Below, piece by piece: positions 195-20,178 of a stretch of DNA of 32,299 bases. Source of the DNA: a virus. Numbering within the stretch: position 1 is the stretch's first letter; each line of letters begins with the position of its first letter. The position numbers were made by a program, and so were the translations under genes. The notes below the pieces were generated by a model. The model had not been told where the DNA came from, did no database searches, and saw only the letters and a program-made list of their open reading frames with translations. The DNA lies in IMG/VR virus record IMGVR_UViG_3300048592_000358, positions 1-32,299 of that record. One strand, given 5' to 3'.

Positions 195-2078
195 TCACCG
201 CTCCTCAACCACCGTCAACGTGCTTCTCCAATAAGGCCCTGCCTTGTGGCCGATGCTCCATGGCTGGTCTATGTGGCCATAGACGGCGCTGTGCCGTACC
301 CAAGTCGCGGTGGCTGTGCGCGCGATAGCGAGCACTTCACCCGTCGTGCCAGCCTCTAGCTGTAGTGCGTGTAACGATGGGCGGCTGTCTGCGATTCCGG
401 CGTCTGTGAATCCCCACGCTGTTTCCGTCTCGCGGCCAGCTTCGAGCGGGATCGTCAGCACGCGGGTCCGCACACCAACAGACTCTACCCATTGCCTGCC
501 CGACGTTGCATCGATGCTGCCGGAATCGACAAAACTCATCGACCAGCCGCCGTCGATGCCGTCATCCAGCACGATCGCATCCCCGATCCATACACGCGCT
601 ATCGTCAGTGGGTATTCCTTCGCCGCGTCCGTCGTGATCCGAAACTGCGCCGATTCGGCAATACCGTCTGGCACTGCAGCCGCCATCATCGGCGGCAACG
701 ACCTGCCGCCCAGCGTCTCGGTGCCGAGTGCCCATGTGTGCAGCAAGGTCCAGGATTCATCGATCGTGTTGCGAGCGTGGACGCTGATGCTCTCGCCATG
801 CTGAGCTTCGGAAATGCCCACGCCAATCAGCGCAACCACCCGAGCAACGCCCGGCGCTTGGGTGCGGACTTTGAGTATGTTTCCGTGGTCGGAAATGTAC
901 CCCCCGACAATGATGCTACCGCCCGTGATTGCGAGCGCGCGGGCGGTTCCTGTGTCGTTGACAAACGTGAATCCCGTACTCACCGCCCCGGACGTGCTGA
1001 CCCTGCCAACCACCCATGAGGTTTCGTCGCCTATGTTGATCTGCGCGCCACCAACGAACACACCACCATCCGGCAACGTCACGAGCGCATACACGGTGTC
1101 GTCGGCACCATATACCAACCCGCCAGGATTCCAGCCCGTGTCCGCGCTTCCCGTGCTCAGAAGCCGTGCGATGCGGTTGCGTGTGGCGCCTCCGATATTC
1201 GTGAATGAGCCACCGACGTACAGTTTCCCGTCCGGTGTCGGAGCGATGGCGAATACAGTGCTATTAGCGATCGGGTTGAAGCTCTCAATACCTCCAGCAG
1301 ATGTGACCCGTGCGATGCGATTGCGTGTTGACCCACCGATGCTGGTGAAGGCCCCGCCGACCACGATCTTTCCTGCGCTGTCGATGGCGAGCGCATAGAC
1401 CGTGTTGTTCGCGTCGGCAGAAAACCCCGTGTCCGTGGCGCCGGACGCCAGCAATCGAGCGAAGTAAGCTCGCGTGTCGCTGTTGACCGTGGTAAATGCG
1501 CCGCCAATCACGATCTTGCCGTCCGATTGCAGCACGATCGCCATCACCTGCGCATCCAGCGACGGAGCAAAGCCCGTGTCGAGCGTCCCATCGGTGCGCA
1601 ACCGTGCGATATACGCTTGCGCCGTGCCGTTGACCGTGGCGAATGTCCCGCCAATCACGATCTTGCCATCCGACTGCAGCGCGATTGCGTTCACCTCACC
1701 GTCAAGCGTGACAGCAAACGATTCGTCCAACCTGCCATCCGGCAGCACGCGGGCAAGAAACGTCCTTGCTACGCCTGACACAGTGGCATAGTCACCTCCA
1801 AGAAGGATGCGGCCGTCCGATTGCACGGCTAGCGCGTTGACGTTTCCGTTCACATTCGGGGTGAACGTATCGTCGTGTTTGCGGTACGCCACGGCCGAAT
1901 TGTCGATCAGGATTTCCAGCGTCTCGGTTGGGCTCTGCACCTTTGATGTGAACACATCGGCCAGCCCCCGCTTCTTCACGTTCGCAACAGGGAACGCTGT
2001 CTCTTCGCCACCTGATGGGATTGTGATTGTCGCCGAATCAACAAAGTTGCGCGCACCCCAGCTAATCAATGCAGTCAT
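195..2078 (-). CDS. Distal tail protein with inserted delta-60 repeat propeller
   Basis: A 627-aa protein, probably part of the tail tip and a candidate receptor-binding protein. The ATG at 2078 is chosen because it overlaps the stop of the hub gene (ATGA). Residues about 1-60 and 405-627 look like the two halves of a beta-sandwich (discoidin-like) tail protein seen in Mu-like siphophages: strand ETLEILID before the insert, VARVVALIGVG after it. Between them, residues about 70-400 carry seven repeats with a period near 49 residues, each built as V-x-A-[IL]-x-x-x-S-[DA]-G-[KR]-[IL]-x-[VI]-G-G-x-[FY]-x-[TS]. This is the delta-60 repeat pattern, typical of predicted beta-propellers in secreted proteins. 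The repeats are also visible in the DNA, for example near 1507 and 1652. Repeat assignment is confident; receptor binding is inference. Confidence 0.85.
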   Translation of the reverse strand: MTALISWGARNFVDSATITIPSGGEETAFPVANVKKRGLADVFTSKVQSPTETLEILIDNSAVAYRKHDDTFTPNVNGNVNALAVQSDGRILLGGDYATVSGVARTFLARVLPDGRLDESFAVTLDGEVNAIALQSDGKIVIGGTFATVNGTAQAYIARLRTDGTLDTGFAPSLDAQVMAIVLQSDGKIVIGGAFTTVNSDTRAYFARLLASGATDTGFSADANNTVYALAIDSAGKIVVGGAFTSIGGSTRNRIARVTSAGGIESFNPIANSTVFAIAPTPDGKLYVGGSFTNIGGATRNRIARLLSTGSADTGWNPGGLVYGADDTVYALVTLPDGGVFVGGAQINIGDETSWVVGRVSTSGAVSTGFTFVNDTGTARALAITGGSIIVGGYISDHGNILKVRTQAPGVARVVALIGVGISEAQHGESISVHARNTIDESWTLLHTWALGTETLGGRSLPPMMAAAVPDGIAESAQFRITTDAAKEYPLTIARVWIGDAIVLDDGIDGGWSMSFVDSGSIDATSGRQWVESVGVRTRVLTIPLEAGRETETAWGFTDAGIADSRPSLHALQLEAGTTGEVLAIARTATATWVRHSAVYGHIDQPWSIGHKAGPYWRSTLTVVEER

Positions 2079-4057
2079 TCGGGAATCTCCAAAAGGCTCA
2101 AGCTCACTTGGCGCGAGCGGAATCGGTAGGTGATACCCAGCGCGCGGCACCATCGGCCTGCGTCAAGGCCGTAGCTCGGGTGTGTCACATGCACCCAATC
2201 GCCGATCTCGATGCTGTCGCCGACTTCCTCGCTCAACAGTGCGTCAACTTCGTAGCGCACCAAAGGCTTTGCGAACAAGCTCGCGACGCGCGTGGCCTCG
2301 GTTTGCAGGTCAGTGGCGGATTGCAGGTAGGTGGGTTGCGCCTCGGCACTCTCTGCCGCGCTGTAGATCGATGGCAGCGTGCCGACACCGGATTTGACCA
2401 CGTATTCGGCCTGTAGCTGCGCGCGCAGCGCCTCGTCAACGCTGGCAGCTATGTCGCCATCGTTGTGCACCAAATGCGTGCGCACGCCTGCCAATCGGCG
2501 ACTGAGGTTCGGTGCCGTCTCATCGCGGCGCTGCACGCCCACAATGCTGGCCGTGGTCAGGTACACGGTGCCCGTAGCCACGCCACGCGCCTGCAACCGG
2601 CCCACGGTCAGCGAGCCGTCGCGCTTGGCGGTGATCCAGCCACACCAGCCATCCATCAGCCGTTGCAGCACGGTGAGCGCAGTAACAGGCGATGGCTCGT
2701 GTGTGCCGACTTGGTATGGCGCTGCCGTGGCCAAGGCGTCAATGGCTGCGGTGTCGAGCGTCGGCGCACTGCCGCCTGCCGTGGCACGCGCGACGGTCCA
2801 GCGGATGAAGGGGCTGAGTGCGTCCGTGGTCACCACCGGCTGGATGGTCACATGGGCAATGGTGATGTCTAGCGGTCTGGTCGTGTGCCAGATACGCAAT
2901 ACTCGCGCGGTGCCTGATGACCCTACAGCGAATTCGTAAGACCCCGCTCGCGTGATTGTTGGAATCAAGAAAGACAACAGGGCCACTGGAGTTGCTGACC
3001 CTGCCGCGACTGTGCCAACTTCCATGCGCACATGCCATATCTTGTTCGCAGACAGAACGTTGGTCGAGGTCTCTGGCGTCATGGTCTGCACCGCTGTAGC
3101 TTGCATCCGCATGCCGCCTGCTACTTGTGTGATGGTCCCTGTGCTCCCCGCCTTCCACCAGCCGCTCGGCATGCCTCCTGACCACGTCCCATTGATGAAG
3201 TCCCACGTTGTTGCCGCGCCATCGTTCAGCAGAGCACCTTGCGCGGTGAAGCACACAGGTCGGTCAGGTTTGTTGACCAGCTTGATGCCGGTGCGCGCAG
3301 GGCGATAGTCGTAGTCTGTGGAAGGGGTGAATACGTCGCCTCGGTCGTACGCTGCCGACACGGCAAACACTGCATCGGAATGCACGTCGTAGCTCCACGC
3401 ATCGGGGTTCGCTACGGGACCGGGCAGTGTTTCGCGCGTATCCACCAGCACGCCCGGCGCAAAGTTCACCCGCCCGATGGTGATGGGCTTTGGCTTGCCG
3501 CGAATGGATTCGTTCGGGCAATCGTTCGGCCACAGATCGCGCTGCAACGGCACGTCGAGGATGGCGAGCGGGTCGGCGAAGTAGAACGTGATCTTGCGCC
3601 CGTTGTCGCTACTCTCCATGCGGTCGATCAAGCCGCGCTGATACAAGCGGCACTGCGCCCACGTGAAAGATGGATCGTCAGCTTCATCGTCCCAGCACCA
3701 CAGCAACTCATATGGCGCATCGCGCACACTGTCGGTCGTGGTGCCGTCGCTCAGCACCTCGCCCGCCACCGGGTAGAGGTAATCCAGCGCGCGATCCCCA
3801 TTCAGCAGCGTGATCGATCCTGCCGAATTGCTGGCCGATCCACTCAGCGGCCAACATGTCGCCCCGCGTGAAATCACAACATCAGCACCACCATCAATGC
3901 GGGCCTTGATCGGCGCGTTGATCACGTCGCTGACTGGATACAGGAACGCCACCCGCTCGCTGGCAAATGCGTTCGAGCCGGTCCAGTTCGGCGCTGGTAC
4001 CAACGACGGATCCAGCACCAGCCCGATGCGGACCAACAACACCCTACGCCTACTCAT
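2075..4057 (-). CDS. Tail hub / baseplate-like structural protein
   Basis: A 660-aa protein that starts inside the tape measure stop (ATGA at 4057-4054) and ends in the start of the distal tail gene. This is the usual place for the hub that closes the distal end of a siphophage tail. Residues about 30-260 resemble the N-terminal part of hub proteins from Mu-like siphophages. Residues about 410-500 carry the ALTVLQRLMDGWCGW...DGSLTVGRL segment typical of such hubs, and the C-terminus (about 590-660, with EIGDWVHVTHPSYGL) is a compact beta domain. Residues about 275-408 look like an inserted jelly-roll with alternating Gly/Trp and beta strands, resembling a carbohydrate-binding module. No catalytic motif is seen. 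Family assignment is from pattern memory and position. Confidence 0.7.
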   Translation of the reverse strand: MSRRRVLLVRIGLVLDPSLVPAPNWTGSNAFASERVAFLYPVSDVINAPIKARIDGGADVVISRGATCWPLSGSASNSAGSITLLNGDRALDYLYPVAGEVLSDGTTTDSVRDAPYELLWCWDDEADDPSFTWAQCRLYQRGLIDRMESSDNGRKITFYFADPLAILDVPLQRDLWPNDCPNESIRGKPKPITIGRVNFAPGVLVDTRETLPGPVANPDAWSYDVHSDAVFAVSAAYDRGDVFTPSTDYDYRPARTGIKLVNKPDRPVCFTAQGALLNDGAATTWDFINGTWSGGMPSGWWKAGSTGTITQVAGGMRMQATAVQTMTPETSTNVLSANKIWHVRMEVGTVAAGSATPVALLSFLIPTITRAGSYEFAVGSSGTARVLRIWHTTRPLDITIAHVTIQPVVTTDALSPFIRWTVARATAGGSAPTLDTAAIDALATAAPYQVGTHEPSPVTALTVLQRLMDGWCGWITAKRDGSLTVGRLQARGVATGTVYLTTASIVGVQRRDETAPNLSRRLAGVRTHLVHNDGDIAASVDEALRAQLQAEYVVKSGVGTLPSIYSAAESAEAQPTYLQSATDLQTEATRVASLFAKPLVRYEVDALLSEEVGDSIEIGDWVHVTHPSYGLDAGRWCRALGITYRFRSRQVSLSLLEIPE

Positions 4058-7000
4058 GCCGTCACCCCACGTCGTTGCGTCATCTGCGCCGCCTGCTTGC
4101 GGCTCTGGTCGTTGTTGCGGTCGCTCACTTCGCCGGTCTTGGCCACAGTGATGCTGATGTGTTCGGCATTGCTGCGGTCGCTGCGCTCGATGCTGTCCAG
4201 CCGGTCACGAATAGCGCGCAACTCAGCCAGCATCTCAGGGCTGGACCCCGCACCGCCCGAAACGGGCAGCCCGTTTTCCCGCATCCATGCGGCGAACGGT
4301 GCGGGAATGATGGCCTCGCCGCGGTGAATCATGGCCATGCCGTCCTGCGGCACGTAGCCGGTGCCTACGGCATAGCTCGGCACGCCTGCCGCCGTGTTTG
4401 CTGCGGCAAGGTTGTCCACAACGCGCAGCAACAAGGCATTGGTTTCTGCTGCTGCAACCGCTGCCGCATCGGTGGCTGCGCTGATGGCGCTGAGGTAGTC
4501 CAAGTCGTTGAGCGCATCAACCGGGAACACGTCGGCGAAGTACGGCGCCAGCGCGTTGCGAATGTCCGGCGCCAGTGTGTTGATGTAGCCCGACATGGCG
4601 TTGATGGCCGCGTTCGCGTCCGCCTCGGTCGTGGCGGTTGCAATGGCGTCAAGGTACGGCGCCAGCGCGTCGCCCGTGCCGTCTGGCAAGGCACCGATCT
4701 GCGCGGCCAGTGCCTGATTGAGCAAGCTCTGCGCGTCAGCCAAACTGCCAAGGTCCGCGCCTACGCTCTCGCCGATCTGAGACAGGTCGATGCCAAGCTG
4801 ATTGGCCAAGTTGCCCAGCGCCATCGCGCTTTCGGCGGTCAGGTCTTGCAGGCTGATGCCCATCTGCTCGGCAAGCTCGGTGATGCCCGCGCCCATGTCG
4901 GTCAGCGACACGCCAAGCTGGCCGGTCAAATCAAGCAGGTTGCTCCCAAGCAAGTCCGCCATATTGACCAGCGCCAGCACGGTTTCGCCGGTGATGGCTT
5001 GCAGGTTGATGCCAAGGTCTGCGGTCAGTTCGTGCAGGTCAACGCCCATGCTCTGCATGAGGTCATAGACCGTCTGGCCCACGGCGCTCGACAGGTCGGC
5101 CAAGTGCTGCGCCAGTTGCACGGCCAAGTCGAGCCGGTTCTGTGCCGCGATCTGCTCGGCACCTGCTGCGGTGATGTAGCCGCTACCGCCTGCGCCGTCC
5201 GTGGGCTCGCTGCCGATTGGCCCGATGCCGTCGAGCATGCCTTGCAGCAATTCGCGCACGTCCCAGAAGCCGCTGTTGTAGTCCTCGCCGCTGGCCTCCA
5301 TCTCGCGCAGCATGCGCAAGTACACGTCGGCAAGCTGTGTTGCCTGCTGTGCGTCGCCGGCGGCCACTGCGGCATTCAGTTGGCTCCAGGCTTCCTCCAA
5401 CTGCTCGGCAGGCGTGAGGGCTGATAGATCACCCAACAACATGCCGTCAAGGTAGGCTTGAAGCGTCTCCGCTGCCTGCCGTTGCTGCGCCCAATAGTCC
5501 GCTGCTGCGATGCCCGCATCCTCGATGCCGCTGGTGAGCGCTTCACCGATGCTGTCGCCGCCGCTGCCATACAGCTGGTCGATCAGCGATTGGGTTTCTT
5601 CGCGCAACTGTGCCAATGCCTGCGCGCGCAACTGCGCCGCGCGCCGCTCAATCACGGCCAACGCCTGCTCGCTTGCGCCGGCCATGCCCGCCGCGCGTGC
5701 GTGCTCGTTGGCGGTGGCAATCGCTTGCGCCTGCCAGTCGCCCGCGTCGCGCATGGCGGCTTGATAGTCAGTCAGCGATTGCGTCTCGCGCACCACGCCT
5801 CGGATGAATTCGCGGTAATCTGCCGCGCCTTGGGCCAAGGCGGCCTCAGCCTCAGCTTGCTCGGCTGCGGCCTGCTCGGCCTGCGCAGCGAGCAAGCGCG
5901 CCAGCGCATCGGCACGCAGACCTTCCAACATCGCAAGCTGTTCCTCGGACGCGCCCAAGTTCGCCAACTGCGCCGCGTACTCGTCCCACTGCCTGCCGAA
6001 CTCGGCCATCTGCCGCTCGAACTCGGTCATCCCAGCCAATGCGGCATCCCATTCCAGACCGCCCAGAATGTCGCCAATCTGCGCCTGTAGCTGCGCCTGT
6101 AGTTGCTGCATGGCTAGTGCGCGCTGTTCTTCCGCAGTGGCAAGCTGTTCGGCCGTGGCTCCATTCGCCGCAAGCCTTGCAGTCAGGTCATCGTAGTACC
6201 GGGTCAGTTCCGCAACGGCACGCTGGGCACCAGACAAGCCGTCGAGATAAAGCGCCCATGCATTACTGTCTAGCGTCTGCTGCAGCTCAGTTTGTACCTG
6301 AGCCAAGCGTTGCGCTTCCTCAGCGGCAGCGCGTGCTGCGGCTTCAGCCGCCTCGGCTTGCGCCTGAGCAGCGGCTTCGGATGCGGCAGAACGAATAAGC
6401 GCAAGCTGCTCCTCGGTTGCCCCGAGCGCAATCGCTTGGGCAATGTAACCATCAAATTGCCTCGTCAGCTGCGCAAGTTCGGCATCCAGTTGGGACATAC
6501 CAGCAACCGCCGCATCCCATGCGATGCCATCAAGCAAACTACTCAAGCTGGCCACGCGCTGAGCCTCAGCCTGGGCCAGTGCCTGCGTGCGCTGGCTTTC
6601 CAGTGTGGCCAGTTGCTCCGCTGTCGCGGCATTCGCCAGCAAGGTTTCACGGTGCTCTTCGTACGCGCGATTGATCTGTGCCACCGCGCGCTGAGCGTCG
6701 GTCACACCCGCCGCAGCAAGCTCCCATGCGTTGTTGTCGAGTAGGCCTGTCACCGTTGCAAGCTGGTCTGCGGTCTGTGTCACCACAGTGCCGACGTCGC
6801 CCATGGCTGCGTTCAGTGCGTCCGTGGCATCGATCACAATGCCCAAAGCCGCCGCCGCCTCAAGCCATTCAACAACCGCCTCGGCGCTGAGGGTTGGCAG
6901 TGCATTCTCGAACAACTCGCGGAACGCCTGTGTGCCGCCTTCGCCGGTGAATTGGGTGTAGTCCATCCCGATGTCGCCGAACTCGCTGGCTGCACTGGCT

Positions 7001-10000
7001 TGTGCCTGCGTCAACATGTATTGCGCGCGCTCAGCCTCGGTGTAGAACCGATCAAAGTACGCGCCCCATAGCGCCTCGGCGCGATCCAGCCCGCCCGCCG
7101 CATCCGTGATCGCCGTGGCCAGCCTCACGATATGCTCGCGCGTGCCGTCGATCTGTACGCCAGACATGTCCAGCGCCTGATCGAGCAAGGCCGTGCTCGT
7201 GGCCACCCGCGCATAGGTCTCGACCAGGGTCTCACTGCCGACGCCCAATTCTTCGACCAGATTGGTGATCTGGGTCAGCGTGCCGCCTTCGCCAAGCAAG
7301 CCGGCGCCGTGCTGAATGTCCGTGGCGGCCAGCAACAGGAATTGCGCGCCCTGCGCCAGTAGCTCGGCGTCGTGACGCCAGCGTTCGGCGATGGCTGAGG
7401 CTTCGCCCATCGGTTGCGGTGTGGACGGCCCGGCGCCAACACCAGGACCGCCGCCGCCGCCGTACTCGGGCAAGGTGTAGTCGATAGGCCCACGGATGCC
7501 TGCAATGCGCGCATTCGCGCCCGCGATCATCGCGCCGACCGTGGCCTCACCAACCGCCTGCACTTGGGTGCCGAGGGCGGCGTCGATATTGGCAATGATG
7601 TTTTCGGCTGCGATGCGCTGGGTGAACACCTCCCAGCTCTCGGCATAGGTGCGCCCAAGGATCGTTCCCGCCTCGCTGGTCAGCTTGCCGTCCTTGTCGA
7701 ACGACTGCTTGAAGCTGGCGGCCACCGATGCGGCCGATTCCAGCCCCAACACGCGCGCGGTTTCGGCATTGGCATCGACGATGGCCTGCCAGAACGCCTC
7801 GATATTCTTGATCGTCTCGGCATCCAGCGCGCCGCGTTCGGTCCAGCGTTTGCTTGAGCGCAAGAAGCCGCCCTTCTGGTAGATGTCCGCCCACTGGTCG
7901 CCGCTGATGCCGCCCGGTCCAAACGAGTACTGCGCACCTGATCCGGTGATCTCCGGCGCGCGATGGCCGAACACCCGCGTGACCAGCGAGCTACCGCCCA
8001 ACACTGACGCCCACTTGTCGGACAGCCCCAACTTGCTCAGTAGGCCGGTGGCGAACTGGGTGATGATCTTGCCGGCGAAGTCCCAGCCGCCGCTGCCCAT
8101 GCCATCGCCCTGCACCGTGCTGCCCCACGGGGTTTGTACCGATCCGCCGTCAGGCCGGTAGCCGTGCTGCCAGCTCAACAAGTTGGCGACCACGGCGGCA
8201 GCGATCCAGCCACCGAGCGCGCCTGCGCCCATGCCGCCCGCACTGGTCGCGCCACCTGCGCCTGTGCCGTAGCCAGTACCGCCCGCAAGCACGCCATACG
8301 ATCCAGTCGAGCCTACGCCGGTGTACGCCGCGAACGCGCCTGATCCGACCTGCGCGCTACCGCCCAAGCCAGCCAGCACGCCGTATCCCGCAGTGCCGCC
8401 TATGCCGCTCAGGTTGGCCGCGCCGAACAGACCTGCCCACAAGCTCTTGCCCGCACTCGCCCATGACTTCGCCGAAAACAACTGCCCGAACATCGACGTG
8501 CCACCCGCGCCACTCGCCCCACCGCCGCCAAACAACGAGCTGAAAATTGATCCGATACCCGTGCCGCCGCTGCCGGCCAGCGACAGGCCGCTCGATTTGT
8601 TGCCGAACAACGCCTGCATCAGCTTGAGCAAGCCCGACTGGATGAGCTGGCGCTTCATGTCATCAATCATCGCCTTCCACCAGCGCTTCACGCCTTGGCT
8701 GCCATCGGCAATCGCGCTGGCCAAGTCATAGGTGAAGCCCTCCCATGCGCGCGCCGATTGCTCGGCGGCCCATTGCGCCTCGCGCACGGTTTCGGCGTTG
8801 AGGTCTGCCAGATTCTTTGCATGCGTGTCGGCCGCCAGCTTGCGCAGTTCGGCCAGCTTGGCAATCTGCGCCTCGCTCATCGGCCCGAGATCGAGCCATT
8901 GCAATTCCAGATCGAGGATCCGCGCCTGCACGTCCTCGTAGTCCATCAGCGCGCGCGTAGCGCCATCGGCCAAGCCATAGGCCAGGCTGCGCAGCATGGT
9001 GTCTACCTCGCCGGTGGCGTCGGTGAGGTTTTTCGCGGCGGTGGCAAGGCTCTTGGTCTTCTTCGTCGCGCCATCTGCGCCGGTTTCGACGGACCCAAGC
9101 ATTGCCTCCACACGCTGGCGCAACTCGTCGATCTCGTCTTGCGGGCCTTTGGCCATGTCGTACAGCGCAGCACCAAATGCCTTGACCCCCCCGAGCAATC
9201 CGCCTTCGCCGCCAGAAAATGCGGCACCCAGCGTGGCCATCTGCTCGCCGGTCAATTTCACCGCGCGCGCCTGCACCTCGGTCAGCGCGGCCCACGATTT
9301 TGCGATGTCGTTGTGCGCACTCTCGACGCCGGCCTGTGCCGTCTCATACGCCACGGCGATCTGCTGGCCAGCCTGCTTAATCGTGGCCATGTTGCGCGCG
9401 TTGCCGTCCGCCACCGCTTGCCATGCGCCATCGAAATCCAAGCGCAAAATCGCCGACTGGTATTCCTGTAGCGACTGGATCGAGTTGGCCAACAGCGTGC
9501 CAATGGTCGATGTCACCGTGCCCACGATGTCGGCCAGCATCGCAACGCCGTTGACGATCACCTCGACCACGTTCTTGAATGCGACGCCGGCAATCGTGAC
9601 TATCTGCAAGCCGGCCGCCAGAAATTCCAGCCCGCCCGCGCTCTCGTGGCTGGCGTTGGCCTCGGCCATCAACAGCGTAGTGATACCGTCCAGCACCTGC
9701 GCCAAGCTGCCGGTGACGCCGGCGGCCTGATTGACGTTGTTGACGTACAGGCTCCATGCATTGGATACCTGACCGAGCGCTTGGCCTACCGTCTGCGGCA
9801 TTTTGGTCATTTCCGCCTGCATGGCGGTCAGTTGCAGCCGCAGCGAATCGGCCACGATGTCGGCTGTCAGTTTTTGCTGCTCGGCCAACTTGCGCAGCTC
9901 GCCAACACTCACGCCCAGCGTGTCGGTCAACGCCTTGACCACACGCGGGCTGTTTTCCATCACCGATCGGAACTCGTCGCCCGATAGCACGCCGGAAGCG

Positions 10001-10542
10001 AACGCCTGCGCCAACTGCTGCACGCCCGCCGCCGCCGATGCAGCGGATCCGCCGGATAGCGTGACCGCCATGCTCACGGCCTCGGTGATCTCGCCAAGCT
10101 CCTGCTGCGAGATGCCGAGCGATTGACTCGACTGCGCAAGGCGCGTGTACAGCGTAGCGACCGACTCCAAGTCAGATCGCGCGGAAATCGCCACGGCCTG
10201 CACCGTCTGCTGCGCTTGCGCGTAGGCTTCGGTTGATCCTGTTGCAATGCGCAGCCGTGCGTTGAGGCTTGTCATCGCATCAGCGGTGCTCACAAGGTCA
10301 CGCACCACGGCACGCACGCCGGCAAATGCGGCCCATACCGAGGCCAGATTTTGCAGGTTGCGCAACTGCGCGCTGATCGATTCAACGCCGCGCCGAGCCA
10401 TTGACAAGCCTGCGGCGGCGCGCTGCCCCGCTTGTTGGCTGGTATTGCCCAGATCGCCCATCTTGGACTTGACCAGGTCAACGCTTGCGACCACTCCCGT
10501 GGCGTCAGATTTGATTCGGAGGGTAACGGTCTGATCAGCCAT
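4054..10542 (-). CDS. Tail tape measure protein
   Basis: A 2162-aa protein that sets tail length and is ejected with the DNA. The N-terminus (about residues 75-260, including MTSLNARLRIATGS and SGGSAASAAAGVQQLAQAFASG) matches the tape-measure N-terminal domain family (TIGR02675 type). Residues about 650-800 are Gly/Ala-rich and hydrophobic, the likely membrane-active part. Residues about 1262-1565 contain long Ala/Gln/Glu-rich helices in tandem modules, and about 1830-1935 contain short LGxxLxxLT-type helical repeats. The C-terminus has the common tape-measure ending (GEAIIP near residue 2070). No M23, lysozyme or NlpC/P60 motif is visible. The ATG at 10542 has an AAGG ribosome-binding sequence. 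Its position after the G/GT chaperones and before the hub is standard. At roughly 0.15 nm per residue the tail would be about 320 nm long. Confidence 0.95.
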   Translation of the reverse strand: MADQTVTLRIKSDATGVVASVDLVKSKMGDLGNTSQQAGQRAAAGLSMARRGVESISAQLRNLQNLASVWAAFAGVRAVVRDLVSTADAMTSLNARLRIATGSTEAYAQAQQTVQAVAISARSDLESVATLYTRLAQSSQSLGISQQELGEITEAVSMAVTLSGGSAASAAAGVQQLAQAFASGVLSGDEFRSVMENSPRVVKALTDTLGVSVGELRKLAEQQKLTADIVADSLRLQLTAMQAEMTKMPQTVGQALGQVSNAWSLYVNNVNQAAGVTGSLAQVLDGITTLLMAEANASHESAGGLEFLAAGLQIVTIAGVAFKNVVEVIVNGVAMLADIVGTVTSTIGTLLANSIQSLQEYQSAILRLDFDGAWQAVADGNARNMATIKQAGQQIAVAYETAQAGVESAHNDIAKSWAALTEVQARAVKLTGEQMATLGAAFSGGEGGLLGGVKAFGAALYDMAKGPQDEIDELRQRVEAMLGSVETGADGATKKTKSLATAAKNLTDATGEVDTMLRSLAYGLADGATRALMDYEDVQARILDLELQWLDLGPMSEAQIAKLAELRKLAADTHAKNLADLNAETVREAQWAAEQSARAWEGFTYDLASAIADGSQGVKRWWKAMIDDMKRQLIQSGLLKLMQALFGNKSSGLSLAGSGGTGIGSIFSSLFGGGGASGAGGTSMFGQLFSAKSWASAGKSLWAGLFGAANLSGIGGTAGYGVLAGLGGSAQVGSGAFAAYTGVGSTGSYGVLAGGTGYGTGAGGATSAGGMGAGALGGWIAAAVVANLLSWQHGYRPDGGSVQTPWGSTVQGDGMGSGGWDFAGKIITQFATGLLSKLGLSDKWASVLGGSSLVTRVFGHRAPEITGSGAQYSFGPGGISGDQWADIYQKGGFLRSSKRWTERGALDAETIKNIEAFWQAIVDANAETARVLGLESAASVAASFKQSFDKDGKLTSEAGTILGRTYAESWEVFTQRIAAENIIANIDAALGTQVQAVGEATVGAMIAGANARIAGIRGPIDYTLPEYGGGGGPGVGAGPSTPQPMGEASAIAERWRHDAELLAQGAQFLLLAATDIQHGAGLLGEGGTLTQITNLVEELGVGSETLVETYARVATSTALLDQALDMSGVQIDGTREHIVRLATAITDAAGGLDRAEALWGAYFDRFYTEAERAQYMLTQAQASAASEFGDIGMDYTQFTGEGGTQAFRELFENALPTLSAEAVVEWLEAAAALGIVIDATDALNAAMGDVGTVVTQTADQLATVTGLLDNNAWELAAAGVTDAQRAVAQINRAYEEHRETLLANAATAEQLATLESQRTQALAQAEAQRVASLSSLLDGIAWDAAVAGMSQLDAELAQLTRQFDGYIAQAIALGATEEQLALIRSAASEAAAQAQAEAAEAAARAAAEEAQRLAQVQTELQQTLDSNAWALYLDGLSGAQRAVAELTRYYDDLTARLAANGATAEQLATAEEQRALAMQQLQAQLQAQIGDILGGLEWDAALAGMTEFERQMAEFGRQWDEYAAQLANLGASEEQLAMLEGLRADALARLLAAQAEQAAAEQAEAEAALAQGAADYREFIRGVVRETQSLTDYQAAMRDAGDWQAQAIATANEHARAAGMAGASEQALAVIERRAAQLRAQALAQLREETQSLIDQLYGSGGDSIGEALTSGIEDAGIAAADYWAQQRQAAETLQAYLDGMLLGDLSALTPAEQLEEAWSQLNAAVAAGDAQQATQLADVYLRMLREMEASGEDYNSGFWDVRELLQGMLDGIGPIGSEPTDGAGGSGYITAAGAEQIAAQNRLDLAVQLAQHLADLSSAVGQTVYDLMQSMGVDLHELTADLGINLQAITGETVLALVNMADLLGSNLLDLTGQLGVSLTDMGAGITELAEQMGISLQDLTAESAMALGNLANQLGIDLSQIGESVGADLGSLADAQSLLNQALAAQIGALPDGTGDALAPYLDAIATATTEADANAAINAMSGYINTLAPDIRNALAPYFADVFPVDALNDLDYLSAISAATDAAAVAAAETNALLLRVVDNLAAANTAAGVPSYAVGTGYVPQDGMAMIHRGEAIIPAPFAAWMRENGLPVSGGAGSSPEMLAELRAIRDRLDSIERSDRSNAEHISITVAKTGEVSDRNNDQSRKQAAQMTQRRGVTA
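4740..5050 (-). repeat. Short helical repeats near tape measure C-terminus
   Basis: About 105 residues (1830-1935) repeat units of the type LG-[IV]-x-L-x-x-[LI]-[TG], for example MGVDLHELTADLG, LGSNLLDLTGQLG and MGISLQDLTAESA. The regular Leu/Ile spacing suggests an amphipathic helix facing its neighbours inside the tail tube. Seen directly in the translation; packing is inference. Confidence 0.7.
5570..6760 (-). repeat. A-B-A-B tandem module duplication in tape measure
   Basis: Four related segments begin near 6745, 6530, 6270 and 6055. Types A (NNAWELAAAGV, NAWALYLDGL) and B (GIAWDAAVAGM, GLEWDAALAGM) alternate, with spacings of about 215, 260 and 215 nt. Each is followed by a conserved [GA]AT[AE]EQLA or GASEEQLA turn. 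A degenerate fifth unit (QAAMRDAGDW...GASEQALAVIE) follows to about 5570. The A-B pair of about 158 residues appears to have been duplicated, lengthening the tape measure. Confidence 0.75.
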
Positions 10543-18924: not shown

Positions 18925-20178
18925 TCATGACGCTGCGATCTTCTTGATCCAAAAAGACAGCAGCGCAAGCGACTTGCGCCCGCCGCGAATCTCCCACACC
19001 GACACAAACTCCTCATCGCCGAAGCGGCGACGCATAAGTATGACCGGCTGCCCGGTGGACCAGCCGACACCAGCATCCTCGACCGCATCAGGATTGGACA
19101 GTATCTGTGGCAAGCGGGCGTAATCCGCTGCGGTGACGGCACGCTGGCCGCGCCTCGATTCCACTGCAGCATCCCCGTGCTTGCTGAGGACGTGACCCAC
19201 TACGCTGCGATCCATCGCATAGTCGAATCCCGCCACGGCCCGCCCCGACAAGTGCTGCACCATCGCCGCCTGTTCGGAGGTCAGCAGCCCCAATGTTCGA
19301 TACGGCGGCACGTCCAAGTTATCGCGCCCCTCAAGAATGCGCTGCGCATACAGCCGCGTGTCGGTCGCCACCGATGGCAGTGCGCGATAGGCCTGGGCCA
19401 GCGCATCGCGTTGTGCTTCCGGCACGCCCTGCATGTACGCCTTGGCCAAGGTGTAATCCCAGTGCTGGGTTTTGGCTGCCATCTGTGCCACGGCATCACT
19501 GACCGTGTCGCCGGGCGCATAGTCCCAGCCCTTGCCGATGCCGATGGGCGCGCCGGTCTTGGGGTCGATGGCTTGCCAGTCATCGGGCAGGGATTTGTTC
19601 GGATCGCCGCCCAGCGCCGTGGCATCCTCAGGATTGCGCAGGCCCACCACGCGGCAGCTGCAGCCCCAGCCATTGGGTGGGTAGTGCGCTTTCCAGAATG
19701 GATGGTCGGCGGGTAGCACCAACCCATCCCACGCAAGGTGTTGCATGCGCGGCTCCACGCTGTCGCCATGCTTGTACAGGTAGTGCGTAAAGCCACCATC
19801 GCGCAGTTGCGCCAATCGCCCTGCGGCGTAGCTGGTGGCGATATTGGTGCGGTAGATGGTGCGTGTGCGCCAGTTGACCTCGCCGTTGTAGGCCCATCCA
19901 TGCTTGGCCACGATGGCCTGAAAATCCTTGCGGAATGCCTCGATGCCCACGCCCTCGGTGACAGCACGATCCACGGCGGCGCCAAGGTCGGCAAGCAAGT
20001 CGGCCGATTGCGCACCGGCCACCATGAAGCCACGGTCGTGCGCTGCGCGCAGCATGTCGGTCCATGTGGCGGTCGGCACGAGGTTGCCCAGCTTGGCGCG
20101 AAAGAACGCCACCTGCTCGGCAAACGGGCGCTTGAGCACGCCCGCAATGGCAGGGTCGCGGTTGGCGGTATCAGCCAC
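18925..20178 (-). CDS. Mu gpF-like minor head protein with C-terminal BECR-type domain
   Basis: A 417-aa protein. Residues about 60-180 are the phage Mu F / SPP1 gp7 head morphogenesis domain, ending in the diagnostic HPFWKAHYPPNGWGCSCRV segment. It binds the portal and may be ejected with DNA. Residues about 285-417 are an additional module: YAMDRSVVGHVLSKHGD (His 329, His 334), then ADYARLPQILSNPDAVED and ILMRRRFGDEEFVSVWEIR. That order matches the phage-Barnase-EndoU-ColicinE5/D-RelE-like (PBECR) nuclease fold known to be fused to phage head proteins. Overlaps the portal stop by eight bases. Domain call is by pattern; nuclease activity is not shown. Confidence 0.85.
   Translation of the reverse strand: MADTANRDPAIAGVLKRPFAEQVAFFRAKLGNLVPTATWTDMLRAAHDRGFMVAGAQSADLLADLGAAVDRAVTEGVGIEAFRKDFQAIVAKHGWAYNGEVNWRTRTIYRTNIATSYAAGRLAQLRDGGFTHYLYKHGDSVEPRMQHLAWDGLVLPADHPFWKAHYPPNGWGCSCRVVGLRNPEDATALGGDPNKSLPDDWQAIDPKTGAPIGIGKGWDYAPGDTVSDAVAQMAAKTQHWDYTLAKAYMQGVPEAQRDALAQAYRALPSVATDTRLYAQRILEGRDNLDVPPYRTLGLLTSEQAAMVQHLSGRAVAGFDYAMDRSVVGHVLSKHGDAAVESRRGQRAVTAADYARLPQILSNPDAVEDAGVGWSTGQPVILMRRRFGDEEFVSVWEIRGGRKSLALLSFWIKKIAAS

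Follow-up and report, generated by a model that had tools for sequence, protein, structure and literature searches.

A predicted seven-repeat delta-60 propeller inserted into the conserved tail-tip protein of a Mu-like siphophage

Siphophage tails of the Mu-like type include a conserved tail-tip protein that, in the phage described here, has quite probably gained a whole seven-repeat delta-60 propeller in a hairpin loop. This propeller, probably derived from a cell, would serve as an exchangeable surface-binding module. The stretch of DNA analysed (hereafter the window, 32,299 bases) is a virus contig of a Mu-like phage, with MuA transposase and MuB encoded at its right end. In addition, it encodes Mor, a terminase, a Mu-type portal, the I protein and a phrog_371 major head protein, as well as a phage Mu F-like protein (18928-20178) with a C-terminal PBECR3 (Barnase/EndoU/ColicinE5-like) domain. 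The named capsid relatives are led by prophages of Vulcaniibacterium (73% identity) and Pseudoxanthomonas (74% identity). The tail genes run leftward on the minus strand, in the order tail terminator, tail tube, tape measure (TMP_3), gene 2 and gene 1, and gene 1 overlaps the end of gene 2, directly upstream, by 4 bases. The tape measure gene, further upstream in this operon, fixes genes 1 and 2 at the tail tip. Gene 2 is a probable hub. The three genes on which the argument depends are the following.

4054..10542, minus strand: tape measure protein, 2162 aa (PF20155 TMP_3, 3.1e-55)
2075..4057, minus strand: gene 2, tail gene of 660 aa with the second insertion site, homologous to phrog_8917 proteins
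195..2078, minus strand: gene 1, tail-tip protein of 627 aa and host of the propeller insertion, whose homologues share its tail-operon position

At the window's tail-side end, immediately past gene 1 (119-160), the sequence GACACTTGGTTTGAGAAGGC is found twice in exact and adjacent copies with a period of 22. The pair occurs nowhere else in the window (chance expectation 0.00), and the two copies are possibly transposase-binding end sites.

Delta-60 repeats are listed in Pfam as a domain of unknown function. The presence of seven such repeats in the last tail gene, originally predicted by reading the sequence alone, is borne out by two family models, with scores well outside what chance would give, and the repeats lie at residues 68-410: gene 1 matches DUF5122 (PF17164) with E=1.7e-55 and 185.4 bits (curated cut-off 27), and TIGR02608 delta_60_rpt with 2.9e-41 and 139.1 bits (curated cut-off 76.5). 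The parts of gene 1 can be delimited as follows.

1893..2078, minus strand: N-terminal flank, residues 1-62, with which the conserved tail domain begins (family profile 2-55)
849..1892, minus strand: inserted seven-repeat delta-60 propeller, residues 63-410 (DUF5122, TIGR02608, AlphaFold2, Foldseek)
1728..1877, minus strand: repeat 1, residues 68-117, length 50
1581..1727, minus strand: repeat 2, residues 118-166, length 49
1434..1580, minus strand: repeat 3, residues 167-215, length 49
1287..1433, minus strand: repeat 4, residues 216-264, length 49
1143..1286, minus strand: repeat 5, residues 265-312, length 48
981..1142, minus strand: repeat 6, residues 313-366, length 54, with an insertion of about 5 residues
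849..980, minus strand: repeat 7, residues 367-410, length 44, shortened
195..848, minus strand: C-terminal flank, residues 411-627, remaining beta-sandwich and conserved C-terminal tail domain (13-homologue profile)

The uniform repeat length of 49 residues that had been proposed applies to repeats 2-4, the overall span being 44-54 residues. Similarly, near-identical DNA had been reported for neighbouring repeats; this description fits a 46-nt block (1486-1531 vs 1633-1678, 87%), but not whole repeats, which are at most 67-70% identical. Specifically, repeats 2 and 3 share 59% of their protein sequence and 67% of their DNA. The gene-1 repeats in the window have diverged, and recent repeat amplification is seen only in the propeller of a relative, KLAP74, not in gene 1. 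A literature search of open-licence papers found none that mentions both the delta-60 repeat and a phage.

Structure prediction agrees with the proposal that the repeats form a propeller. AlphaFold2, applied to the 627-aa protein, models seven repeats of three strands each, with pLDDT values mostly of 70-97 over residues 72-406 and with the last two blades less certain. In the same full-length model the flanks have pLDDT values below 50, partly because four alignment rows were misplaced onto the propeller, and only the propeller part was used. The leading PDB matches of this part in Foldseek are WD40 propellers (E~1e-8). Doa1, through its seven-bladed WD40 domain, is the best target (TMt 0.70), followed by Ytm1-type chains (TMt 0.63-0.69), most NHL domains scoring 0.53-0.59; the best structural matches are seven-bladed, and the ring may be closed. 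No solved structure matching by sequence was found. A second model was obtained for an insert-less homologue from contig 3300032431_000027 (mean pLDDT 45.5), in which residues 50-145 adopt a sandwich (pLDDT ~55-72) and the insertion loop runs between strands 52-57 and 63-76. The best PDB matches of this sandwich, taken from a low-confidence model, are CBM32 and CBM29 modules (TMt ~0.4-0.54). The designation of the tail domain as discoidin-like is consistent with these matches, at the low confidence of the model from which they come, and the insertion loop is predicted to join two strands that lie side by side in a CBM32/discoidin-like sandwich.

The borders of the insert are defined by comparison with homologues that lack it. 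A profile of 13 insert-less homologues matches gene 1 with 101 bits (4e-33), profile positions 2-55 aligning with gene-1 residues 2-55 and positions 111-270 with residues 457-626. As had been anticipated, the two flanks fit a single conserved protein and keep its order on either side of the gap. The strands expected on either side, ETLEILID and VARVVALIGVG, are located at residues 52-59 and 411-421, and the homologue gap falls where it was predicted, the homologues having only a short loop there; the insert itself is longer than the approximately 330 residues first estimated, measuring about 345-348. In particular, removal in silico of residues 64-412 gives the best score against the insert-less profile, 115.1 bits, and excisions starting at 61-66 and ending at 408-413 score nearly as well. 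When the N-terminal part was shuffled, none of 1,000 versions reached this value (mean 104.3, maximum 111.3 bits), and propeller pieces put in its place reached at most 107.0 bits. The N-terminal flank alone scores -1.4 bits against the same profile; its placement derives from the spliced score together with 13 identities over 41 positions between KLAP74 and window gene 1 (residues 1-41). Judged from these alignments, the seven-repeat insert splits a conserved tail protein of about 280 aa.

Through the 13-homologue profile (101 bits, and 115.1 after excision) the gene-1 flanks belong to a phrog_8610-type family. Most insert-less gene-1 homologues correspond to phrog_8610, which two of them do not match, and the gene-2 homologues to phrog_8917, both being families of uncharacterised phage genes; no direct phrog_8610 match was obtained for window gene 1 or its C-terminal flank. 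A Dit family match for gene 1 was not found either. Moreover, gene 1 comes after the 660-aa hub-like gene 2 and not directly behind the tape measure, and for this reason it is at most a candidate Dit.

Relatives without the insert, on whose existence the novelty of the architecture had been made to depend, do exist: at least 13 gene-1 homologues of 256-290 aa have a short loop at the insertion site. Single-sequence searches of viral and genome collections with the C-terminal flank or gene 2 gave no matches, and the homologues were found through profiles and the capsid route. By tblastn, the C-terminal flank led to two 'minor tail proteins', one of 276 aa in Microcystis phage Me-ZS1 and one of 273 aa in Leptolyngbya phage Lsp-JY19. 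The homologue of Microcystis phage yong1 (277 aa) was reached via Me-ZS1, that of EBPR siphovirus 2 (264 aa) via gene 2, and those on IMG/VR contigs by profile searches. For most insert-less homologues the gene order is tape measure, then a tail gene, then the gene-1 homologue; in the phage records and contigs the gene-1 homologue comes after a gene resembling gene 2, and both lie downstream of the tape measure. When 50 genomes whose capsids are related were searched with a profile, homologues were also found in Vulcaniibacterium tengchongense (263 aa), in MAGs of Pseudoxanthomonas (256 aa) and Desulfovibrionaceae (290 aa), and in the KLAP74 MAG (261 aa). The insert-less set therefore includes the prophages of Vulcaniibacterium and Pseudoxanthomonas, which among named capsid relatives are the two closest. 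KLAP74 gene 1 is by far the closest insert-less relative, with 47% identity over residues 493-627 (135 residues). A further 14 gene-1 matches in 398 genomes of Vulcaniibacterium's order are all open frames of 176-354 aa. No propeller was found at the gene-1 site in the 13 homologues and 14 further matches, and the gene-1 insert is therefore known from one record. Two additional features of the relatives can be mentioned. In several of them, but not in the window, gene 1 is followed by a conserved gene of about 256 aa with the motif PWPGGKxRL (L024 555-1325; L022 6550-7320; L125 563-1339; L126 2158-2934), which by eye resembles D12-type DNA adenine methylases. In two others, gene-1 homologues are duplicated in tandem (L041 5995-7636; L179 5145-6865).

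A second insertion site is found in the neighbouring gene. KLAP74 gene 2 (845 aa), directly upstream of gene 1, contains a delta-60 propeller, and its conserved parts are 44% identical to window gene 2 (window residues 38-274 and 451-658). At the site of the KLAP74 propeller the window has a different module.

2834..3211, minus strand: jelly-roll/CBM-like module in gene 2, residues 283-408, about 125 residues, at the site of the KLAP74 propeller

A profile of nine empty-site gene-2 homologues aligns on either side of both the window and the KLAP74 inserts, and the site is empty in 13 homologues, jelly-roll-like in six including the window, and occupied by a propeller in KLAP74. Among the further gene-2 relatives, four have an empty site and five a jelly-roll-like module (L173, L177, L178, L179 and L181). 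Four of these five modules are weakly similar to each other or to that of the window (E 0.004 to 2.5e-5), and the one in L173 to none. The window module has no Pfam or PDB-profile match; its assignment to a known CBM family was accordingly rejected, and its CBM-like character is a reading of its sequence pattern only. As a propeller is found in gene 1 of the window and in gene 2 of KLAP74, each gene has its own insertion site. The KLAP74 array (L128 6502-7180) consists of 147-bp tandem units with 92% matches, which may reflect a recent change in repeat number or an assembly estimate. Propeller-like repeats, seven by eye, are also present in an 824-aa protein beside a tape measure in a different phage (L043 4888-7362), just before a part that matches positions 17-94 (of 97) of the SPP1_Dit C-terminal domain (E=0.0037). 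Separately, a 1316-aa protein of a viral contig (L131 2346-6296) has about seven delta-60 repeats near its C-terminus.

With regard to the origin of these propellers, 35 of 300 genomes of Vulcaniibacterium's order encode cellular delta-60 proteins, the best matches being 42-53% identical. The window and KLAP74 propellers align with each other end to end at 46%, and the two phages are close in the conserved parts of both tail genes (47% and 44%), as would be expected had a single phage-borne cassette moved between genes 1 and 2 within the tail module. We consider such a transfer unlikely, since the two propellers show no special kinship: the one in the window scores 235 bits against the cellular protein L151 and 200 against that of KLAP74, which in turn scores 300 bits against the cellular L156 and 226 against the window's. 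As each of them scores at least as well with cellular proteins, these comparisons suggest separate captures, a more likely course than one moving cassette, and the probable source of the gene-1 propeller is a cellular delta-60 protein.

The same scores bear on the possibility that the propeller is ancestral to the gene-1 family and that the short forms are deletions. A domain in a loop is easily deleted and the sample covers only a minor part of the family; but the propeller is absent from all 13 homologues, in several deep branches (cyanobacterial phages, the EBPR phage, Xanthomonadales and other prophages), and from the 14 further matches, and the insert resembles cellular delta-60 proteins (up to 235 bits) no less than it does any phage propeller, making an ancestral propeller very improbable. 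An assembly chimera or a misread frame might be suspected in an IMG/VR virus contig for which a second copy of the tail tip was not found. We give this practically no credence, as the frame is open throughout, both junctions lie within the loop defined by the relatives, and insert and flanks agree in GC (60.7% vs 60.5%) and GC3 (71% vs 69%). There is also the question of whether the propeller binds the host at all. Propellers are often platforms for protein-protein interaction, and insertion loops of the Dit of roseophage R4C help to clamp the hexamer (PMC10276861), so that a structural spacer or an inter-subunit contact stiffening the tail tip is conceivable. This reading appears rather improbable to us, because absence from every homologue examined indicates that the propeller is not needed for assembly, and because the gene-2 site, with its varied jelly-roll-like modules or a propeller, follows the pattern of exchangeable binding modules.

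An exchangeable surface-binding module is thus the best explanation, given that the propeller is dispensable across the family, that its ends could close on each other and that such a propeller is found at a site which other relatives fill with jelly-roll-like modules. According to this explanation, a whole delta-60 propeller would enter a beta-hairpin loop of the N-terminal discoidin/CBM32-like sandwich. The two ends of a closed propeller adjoin and, consequently, it would fit a short loop and leave the host domain unbroken. It would then be displayed at the tail tip as an extra module promoting adsorption. By analogy with the systems discussed below, display at the tip and binding to the host surface are the most likely role of the gene-1 propeller.

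In Dit proteins, inserted carbohydrate-binding modules attach to saccharides of the host and promote adsorption (PMC10688798; PMC7291167). The 'evolved' Dits of lactococcal 936/Skunavirus phages and of Lactobacillus phage J-1 (PMC7291167; PMC10688798) resemble gene 1 in having a binding module in a conserved tail-tip loop, in that only some phages carry the insert, and in that the domain receiving the module exists without it in relatives. In these Dits, however, CBMs are located in the galectin domain, whereas gene 1 has a delta-60 propeller, with putative binding activity, in a predicted discoidin/CBM32-like sandwich. Propellers are known from phage receptor-binding devices, namely the five-bladed one of the S. 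aureus phi11 RBP and the seven-bladed C-terminal domain of PhiKZ gp131 (PMC4901313). Like that of gene 1, they are located at the tail tip or baseplate with a proposed host contact, but they are separate domains of RBP- or baseplate-type proteins, neither loop-inserted nor of the delta-60 family. The tail of roseophage R4C combines a Dit insertion domain, an oligosaccharide-binding domain in the hub and a carbohydrate-binding domain in the megatron protein (PMC10276861). As in the window and its relatives, several tail-tip proteins thus have extra, probably saccharide-binding domains, although the folds are different and no delta-60 propeller is present. Finally, cellular delta-60/DUF5122 proteins share the repeat family of gene 1 and its repeats of about 49 residues; they have 7-14 repeats in frames of about 600-1,200 aa, in contrast to the exactly one propeller that gene 1 holds inside another domain.

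A broader proposal, to which we assign even chances, is that delta-60 propellers serve as a portable adhesion cassette, which phages have on more than one occasion acquired from cellular proteins and lodged in loops of at least three tail-tip scaffolds, with amplification of the KLAP74 kind renewing the binding surfaces. The three scaffolds proposed are the gene-1 sandwich of the window, the hub-like gene 2 of KLAP74 and the SPP1-Dit-like C-terminal domain of L043.

The modularity of 'evolved' tail proteins, known mainly with carbohydrate-binding modules in phages of Gram-positive bacteria, would hereby be extended to a common cellular propeller. The phage concerned is Mu-like, and prophages of Gram-negative bacteria are its nearest relatives. 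Two adjacent tail genes have insertion sites, and the modules that occupy them differ between relatives; consequently, candidate host-binding parts become predictable from sequence, as whatever is extra relative to the empty site. Should glycans or proteins of the host prove to be bound by the propellers, this would provide a testable function for delta-60 repeats.
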